A stretch of 32,930 bases of DNA from an archaeon. GTDB taxonomy: Archaea > Nanobdellota > Nanobdellia > Woesearchaeales > GW2011-AR9. Numbering within the stretch: the first letter of the stretch is position 1; every line of letters starts with the position of its first letter. Below the pieces are notes generated by a model that was not told the DNA's origin, did not search any database, and saw only the letters and a program-made list of their open reading frames with translations. Location of the stretch: assembly GCA_023265925.1 (NCBI GenBank), contig JAHFSD010000014.1:1-32930 (forward strand), written 5' to 3'. This document shows, one piece after another, positions 14,311 to 31,200 of the stretch. The position numbers and the translations under genes are program-made.

Positions 14311-14530
14311 GGGCCTGTGGTCTAGTGGCTATCTCTTTAAAAGAGACCATTGATGACGTCTCGTTGACGAAAACTCGTTAAATTCGTTGTTTTCAGAGTC
14401 GAGAAGAACCCCGGTTCGAAAGCAAGTTACACTATGCAAGTCGTACTCAGGTGGGATATTCCTCCCTGTGGTCGGAAATCCCACGACACTGGCAAAATAA
14501 TGTAACAGAACGAAAGTCCGGGCAGGCCCA
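14311..14530 (+). tRNA. tRNA-Val(GAC) with three introns: 14331-14352 (20/21, 22 nt), 14370-14398 (37/38, 29 nt), 14421-14516 (59/60, 96 nt)
   Basis: Spliced: GGGCCTG TG GTCTAGTGGCTATGAC G TCTCG TTGACGT CGAGA AGAAC CCCGG TTCGAAT CCGGG CAGGCCC A; each junction lies in a bulge-helix-bulge-like fold; TATA 'tttataaaa' about 32 nt upstream. Confidence 0.88.
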
Positions 14531-27280: not shown

Positions 27281-27473
27281 GGGCCTGTGGTCTAGCGGCT
27301 ATCTTTGGGCGAAGAAGACTGCAGATGACAACTCCCTTACACGGAGTAGATCCCCGGTTCGAACGCAAGTTACACTAGGCAAGTCGTACTCAGGTGGGAT
27401 ATTCCTCCCTGTGGTCGGAAATCCCACGACACTGGCAAAATAATGTAACAGAACGAAAGTCCGGGCAGGCCCA
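27281..27473 (+). tRNA. tRNA-Val(TAC) with two introns: 27301-27324 (20/21, 24 nt) and 27364-27459 (59/60, 96 nt)
   Basis: Spliced: GGGCCTG TG GTCTAGCGGCTATGAC A ACTCC CTTACAC GGAGT AGATC CCCGG TTCGAAT CCGGG CAGGCCC A; TATA 'tttttaaag' about 30 nt upstream. Confidence 0.88.
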
Positions 27474-29299: not shown

Positions 29300-29454
29300 A
29301 GCGCCCGGAGGGATAGTCGAAGTTCCGCTTCTCCTTTAGTTCCTACGGAACTTACTCGAACCCTCGAATGCTCGCTGTCTTCTGTTCATTGCCATGATGG
29401 CTCATCCTTGCGGACGACTGCAGGCGAGTACCTTTGCCGCTTGGTGACGGGCGC
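29300..29454 (-). tRNA. tRNA-Cys(GCA) with two introns: 29377-29417 (37/38, 41 nt) and 29314-29354 (59/60, 41 nt)
   Basis: Minus-strand spliced: GCGCCCG TC ACCAAGCGGCAAAGGT A CTCGC CTGCAGA GCGAG CATTC GAGGG TTCGAGT CCCTC CGGGCGC T; U73 fits Cys. Confidence 0.88.
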
Positions 29455-30804: not shown

Positions 30805-30858
30805 CTATTTTTTGTCTCTATAAAGAAGGAAGAAGTATTTAAAGATATTGCTGGTGGA

Positions 30859-31056
30859 AGTAATACTTTAGCTTCCTGAAGTGAAGCTCTACCGTCTTCT
30901 CGGCAAGTAACCTATGCAAGTTACTCAGGTGGGGTACTCGCTCCGCTCGACCCCACGATAATGATAGTGGATGGGACAACCCCCCGTCTGCTTGCTACAG
31001 CACCCGAGGAGGCTCGACCTGAGGATGGTAGAGCTTCACAAAGCTAAAGTATTACT
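30859..31056 (+). ncRNA. Candidate structured ncRNA (or IR-bounded element) with long paired termini and a core shared with tRNA-Val T-loop introns
   Basis: gtaatactttagctt...aagctaaagtattac and gtgaagctctacc...ggtagagcttcac nested stems; 'tatttaaag' TATA at 30836-30844; core 'GCAAGTAACCTATGCAAGTTACTCAGGTGGG..CCCACGA'. Confidence 0.65.
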
Positions 31057-31071
31057 GGTGGAAAGAGAGAA

Positions 31072-31200
31072 TGGACCTGGGGAGACAGTCAAAGCTCCGC
31101 TGTTCGGTCAGTTCCTGCGGAACTTATTTGAACTCCCGACCCCCAGCTTAGAAGGCTTGCACAATACTTTGGTGCCCTATCCAGGCTAGGCTACAGGTCC
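31072..31200 (-). tRNA. tRNA-Arg(TCT) with two introns: 31157-31169 (29/30, 13 nt) and 31086-31126 (59/60, 41 nt)
   Basis: Minus-strand spliced: GGACCTG TA GCCTAGCCTGGATAGGGC A CCAGC CTTCTAA GCTGG GGGTC GGGAG TTCAAAT CTCCC CAGGTCC A; TATA 'tttataaag' about 30 nt upstream. Confidence 0.9.

Follow-up and report, generated by a model that had tools for sequence, protein, structure and literature searches.

Two tRNA genes with T-loop introns

The window, the whole 32,930-nucleotide stretch of DNA analyzed here, corresponds to contig C55 of G000, an archaeal genome assembly of 1.2 Mb and 57 contigs. Genes for tRNA-Cys(GCA) and tRNA-Arg(UCU) lie on the minus strand at its right end, and each contains two introns (Table 1). 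In a scan of named genomes, the neighboring NFACT protein matched only archaeon nzgw58 (53%) and an Archaeoglobi MAG (30%). Neither ARAGORN nor the Rfam tRNA model reports either gene in the window. Since both tools are blind to such genes, the tRNA sets of genomes of this kind are under-counted.

Table 1. Features of the window that bear on the tRNA introns; positions are those of the window
Feature	Position	Strand	Details
tRNA-Cys(GCA), two introns	29301–29454	−	acceptor stem GCGCCCG/CGGGCGC; T-stem GAGGG/CCCTC; anticodon loop CTGCAG..A; discriminator T at 29300
tRNA-Cys T-loop (59/60) intron, 41 nt	29314–29354	−	TAAGTTCCGTAGGAACTAAAGGAGAAGCGGAACTTCGACTA; BHB with core T55-C56-G57 opposite CGA, bulges AG|T and TA|T, intron helix AAGTTCCG/CGGAACTT
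tRNA-Cys canonical 37/38 intron, 41 nt	29377–29417	−	read from sequence; conserved in tRNA-Cys of relatives
tRNA-Arg(UCU), two introns	31073–31200	−	acceptor stem GGACCTG/CAGGTCC; T-stem GGGAG/CTCCC; anticodon loop CTTCTAA; discriminator A at 31072
tRNA-Arg T-loop (59/60) intron, 41 nt	31086–31126	−	TAAGTTCCGCAGGAACTGACCGAACAGCGGAGCTTTGACTG; BHB with core T55-C56-A57 opposite TGA, bulges AA|T and TG|T, intron helix AAGTTCCG/CGGAGCTT
tRNA-Arg small intron, ~13 nt, 5' side of anticodon stem (28/29 or 29/30)	31157–31169	−	removal gives stem CCAGC/GCTGG; matching insert in G002 Arg(UCU)
Larger intron family	14311–14529 and 27281–27472	+	also on G000 contigs C37, C5, C51, C34, C28 and C44

The original prediction had placed a 41-nt intron at site 59/60 of each gene, and its coordinates proved exact. 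Excising these 41 nt leaves both tRNAs with a 7-nt T-loop (TTCGAGT in Cys, TTCAAAT in Arg) and with fully paired T and acceptor stems. A segment of the other tRNA-Cys intron, at 37/38 (ATGAGCC..GGCAATGAACAGAAGAC), also occurs in a Leu-type tRNA of a relative (L089, G018:C44). This common Cys/Leu-type segment suggests that anticodon-loop introns may have moved between isotypes as well.

Similarity of the Cys and Arg introns

The end-to-end alignment that had drawn attention to the two T-loop introns holds: they are identical at 32 of 41 positions (78%) and align without gaps. The alignment score of 27.5 corresponds to a z of ~9 against dinucleotide shuffles and of ~8 against random introns constrained to form a BHB. 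It was not reached by any of 20,000 dinucleotide shuffles (best, 19.5), nor by any of 20,000 random introns built with the same BHB pairing (best, 20.5), so that the alignment beats both null models. Judged from their sequences, the two are the same intron, homologous in Cys and Arg.

Predicted structure and splicing

Both introns give the same predicted precursor fold, comprising the T-stem (h), a core helix TCR/YGA, two 3-nt bulges, and an intron helix AAGTTCCG/CGGARCTT. The central helix of Cys and Arg has three pairs and a T54.C mismatch at the fourth core position versus four pairs in the ideal motif, so the BHB is slightly relaxed. Among 15 related introns, the BHB pairs are present in 93% of cells, and both sides have changed in 11 of the 16 pairs. 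None of 500 shuffles of these introns reached the observed covariation score, and no sliding control came near it.

The original prediction had described a paired A-to-G change within the intron stem. That change turned out to be one-sided (U-A to U.G). It is an exon base and an intron base that have changed together, at position 57, with a G-C pair in Cys and an A-U pair in Arg. In 113 T-loop introns, position 57 and its intron partner are A-T in 52, G-C in 43, G.T in 8, and other combinations in 10, a count biased somewhat towards pairing because the scanner required three of four core pairs.

The genome encodes a catalytic subunit of the splicing endonuclease on contig C53 (PF01974, E 1.8e-29), in which the Y/H/K region is present. 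Its best match among solved structures is the Nanoarchaeum equitans catalytic subunit (3iey_A), with the Methanocaldococcus enzyme just behind. This resemblance and the size of the genome make it probable that the lineage belongs to DPANN. Broad-specificity splicing endonucleases are known to accompany scattered introns (PMC12397907). The restored cloverleaf, the modeled bulges, and the endonuclease gene all mark the two 41-nt inserts as probable archaeal BHB tRNA introns, which would be spliced as such. We found no match to an Rfam intron at the gathering threshold anywhere in the window that would point to a group I or group II mobile intron or a homing element, and a length of 41 nt leaves no room for an ORF. 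Neither the 41-nt Cys/Arg family nor the larger second family matches any Rfam family.

A competing fold can be drawn for both introns and for their relatives. The segment AGTTCC has two possible partners, a nearby GGAACT and the GGARCT with which the intron ends, and a second hairpin can form within GAAGC-GNA-GCTTC. Both sets of pairs covary in the 15 members. Across the order, hairpin 1 is weak (mean z of −0.8) and the BHB helix is strong (−3.2), although the model used selects for the BHB helix. The two-hairpin fold, which is conserved in some members, may belong to the excised form of the intron.

Distribution across the order

Covariance models were built from the two introns and then from 15 relatives. 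With the loose model, 50 of the 295 genomes sampled from the order gave hits. Its weak hits include generic T-loop BHB introns, and the core of members related in sequence is smaller. When a sample of the phylum was searched (model R2), 38 genomes gave hits, 35 of them from the same order and 3 from the same class. The host isotypes, some of which were assigned automatically, include Cys, Arg, Gln, Lys, Pro, Ala, Glu, Asp, Gly, Asn, Thr, and Ser. A pattern scan with the 20-nt core of the family returned T-loop introns already known and one further match, in G179, where no surrounding tRNA was found.

Near-identical copies occur within one genome, in Asp and Arg(UCU) of G073 and in Thr and Lys of G253. 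The nearest neighbor of an intron came from the same genome in 15 cases versus 0.9 expected by permutation, and from the same isotype in 7 cases versus 4.7 expected (p = 0.21). On sequence relationship, the Cys/Arg pair is part of a T-loop intron family that appears to be spread across this archaeal order in many isotypes.

Origin of the Cys/Arg pair

The tRNA-Cys of a sister genus (G014) carries the same intron as the Cys gene of the window, which means that the intron was either present in Cys before the genera split or exchanged between them. The orthologous Arg genes look different. Arg(UCU) of G002 matches the Arg gene of the window in its tRNA body (93% tRNA identity over the 5' part) and in its small stem intron, and its T-loop contains an unrelated 47-nt intron. 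The T-loop is empty in about 20 Arg genes of the family, including Arg(UCU) of G327.

In a tree of the introns, which is based on 47 columns and has few firm forks, the Arg intron of the window groups with the Cys introns of G014 and G000 with a support of 95/87. A single clade of Arg(UCU) introns was rejected (p-AU 0.0076), whereas a single clade of Cys introns was not (p-AU 0.068). The relationships of the introns and of the tRNAs, whose comparison had been proposed as a check, therefore disagree. Taken with the empty or unrelated T-loops of the Arg(UCU) orthologs, these results support the original prediction of intron transposition between isotypes at one site.

The exchange is not private to Cys and Arg. 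By score, the Cys intron of the window is no closer to the Arg intron than to those of G002 Gln(UUG) and G014 Cys. The pair thus belongs to a broader movement of introns among tRNAs and does not have to stem from a single direct jump. With 86% completeness, the MAG G000 could also lack a tRNA that is a nearer donor.

We consider it very likely that a family of BHB introns present throughout the order spreads among tRNAs by copying into site 59/60, and that a copy of the lineage carried by Cys entered Arg(UCU). This explanation draws on the homology, structure, and covariation of the introns and on their incongruence with the tRNAs. Two other histories were weighed against it. Convergence would have the common splicing structure make both introns look alike, given that each must complement TTCRA at one end and fold into a BHB. 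Even so, random introns bound by that same constraint score 20.5 or less against the 27.5 observed, the loop segment AGGAACT is common to both introns without having a BHB role, and many T-loop introns that fold equally well have nothing in common. We rejected convergence, which seems to us extremely improbable, because the BHB-constrained null model falls short of the observed score. Ancient vertical inheritance would place a T-loop intron in the ancestor of the Cys and Arg tRNAs, with loss in most lineages since. The wide occurrence of T-loop introns in the order fits this history, as does the failure to reject one Cys-intron clade. It would also require 41-nt sequences to have stayed 78% identical since the isotypes arose, and it conflicts with the unrelated introns at the same site in close orthologs such as G002 Arg, with a similarity that is predicted by genome rather than by isotype, and with the rejection of a single Arg(UCU) intron clade. 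On the orthologous T-loops, the nearest-neighbor permutation, and the AU test, we rejected this history too and give it next to no credence. The two outcomes named beforehand as contrary to transposition have thus both been tested: the similarity survives statistics, and inheritance from before the isotypes diverged is contradicted.

Possible route of transfer

In the precursor, TTCR of the T-loop would pair with YGA near the 3' end of the intron, and the intron ends would pair with each other, leaving two 3-nt bulges to be cut by the archaeal splicing endonuclease. A ligase, assumed to be of the RtcB type, would then rejoin the exons into a normal T-loop. Across the order, the intron family would spread by inserting copies at this site in one tRNA after another. 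The copy of the Cys-borne lineage probably entered tRNA-Arg(UCU) after G000 split from G002-like relatives, and a base of the exon–intron helix would have changed later, keeping its pair with A57 of Arg. Transfer from Cys to Arg could have proceeded by reverse splicing or by short recombination confined to the conserved TTCRA. Between tRNAs of the same genome, T-stems have 3.1 of 5 bases in common when the introns are similar versus 2.7 of 5 when they are dissimilar. T-stems do not travel along, so the transferred unit is the intron, give or take the TTCRA common to all tRNAs.

An alternative is gene conversion, in which T-loops recombine as DNA and homologous recombination carries the intron along with no route specific to introns. 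All tRNAs have GTTCRA at the site, and partial 3' copies of tRNAs that contain introns of these families are found adjacent to complete tRNAs (L078, G046 Cys; L100, G000:C27), an arrangement of tRNA fragments that resembles the integrase/recombination model for Caldiarchaeum (PMC3293823). Conversion tracts, however, would have to be ~6 nt on each side, as T-stems and acceptors were not co-transferred. The second intron family of G000 occupies both 59/60 and, in Ala (G000:C44), 37/38, where the flanks differ; this speaks for an insertion that follows the splicing structure and against simple recombination through the sequences flanking the T-loop site. We lean against gene conversion while regarding it as a serious possibility. 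Beyond the copying of introns at 59/60 that we favor, T-loop introns might be minimal mobile RNA elements that use reversed endonuclease and ligase reactions at TTCRA, followed by copying to DNA, and so form a selfish family across the order. We find that proposal rather doubtful. If it is true, a 41-nt RNA that has no gene would be maintaining itself in this selfish manner across the whole order.

Two tRNA-fragment loci deserve separate description. In L078 (~1490–1660, G046:C35), an intact, intronless tRNA-Cys is followed by a partial second copy that runs from the anticodon loop to the 3' end. The T-loop of this partial copy contains a Cys/Arg-family intron with a broken BHB helix. In L100 (~1480–1720, G000:C27), the sequence after an intronless tRNA 3' end consists of a larger-family intron, reversed in orientation, and then the tRNA 3' end once more (GTTCAAATCACGGCAGGAGC). 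The G000:C27 arrangement looks like a small insertion between tRNA-end repeats.

Comparison with known systems

Transposition of BHB introns between tRNA isotypes has been described in the Thermoproteales (Fujishima et al. 2010, as related in PMC4033280 and PMC4090602). In those accounts, as here, near-identical BHB introns occur across isotypes and were gained after the tRNA bodies had diverged. Compared by description, the present case differs in coming from another, small-genomed order and in having a Cys/Arg family that is found only at 59/60 and can be traced over many taxonomic families of the order. Both marks of Thermoproteales-type transposed introns are seen here, namely sharing between isotypes above chance and disagreement between intron and tRNA relationships.

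Site 59/60 is a listed non-canonical position of archaeal BHB introns (PMC4090602), and our introns have this site and a predicted excision by the BHB endonuclease in common with those listed. That list gives positions only, whereas here sequence-related introns fill the site in many isotypes. The tRNA fragment near the G046 Cys locus recalls the gain of an intron through integration of a mobile element in Caldiarchaeum tRNA-Thr (PMC3293823); beside the Cys and Arg introns, no integrase or larger element was noticed. In Asgard Atabeyarchaeia and Freyarchaeia, too, most tRNAs contain introns, often outside the canonical site, and the part of that account considered here (PMC11291895) does not mention isotype-crossing intron families. 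We found no published account of such families in archaea of this kind in the open-licence literature.

The order thus offers a second, very extensive case of tRNA intron transposition, in uncultured small-genomed archaea, of a kind known mainly from the Thermoproteales. Its close relatives with empty, occupied, and swapped-intron orthologous sites make the rate, direction, target choice, and exon co-conversion of such transfers measurable.

Other intron families

The second, larger intron family of G000 has members of about 90 nt (GCAAGTTACACTATGCAAGTCG...), within an overall range of about 80–141 nt (GCAAGTTACACTATGCAAGTCGTACTC..GTGGGG..CCCCACGACACTGGC). It is found at 59/60 in nine tRNAs of this genome, in addition to its 37/38 site in tRNA-Ala, and its T-loop hosts are Val(GAC), Val(UAC), Arg(CCU), Gly, Asp, Lys, and others. 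In relatives, the larger family sits in the T-loops of Cys and Arg. Directly downstream of tRNA-Arg, at 30855–31060 of the window, lies an inverted-repeat element of ~200 bp, parts of which are repeated on other contigs; the inside of this element resembles the larger intron family (GGCAAGTAACCTATGCAAGTTACTCAGGTGGGG). A further T-loop intron (TCAGCATAC..GTATGCTGATGA) is common to Arg(UCU) and a probable Gly(CCC) of G002 (L044, L065).
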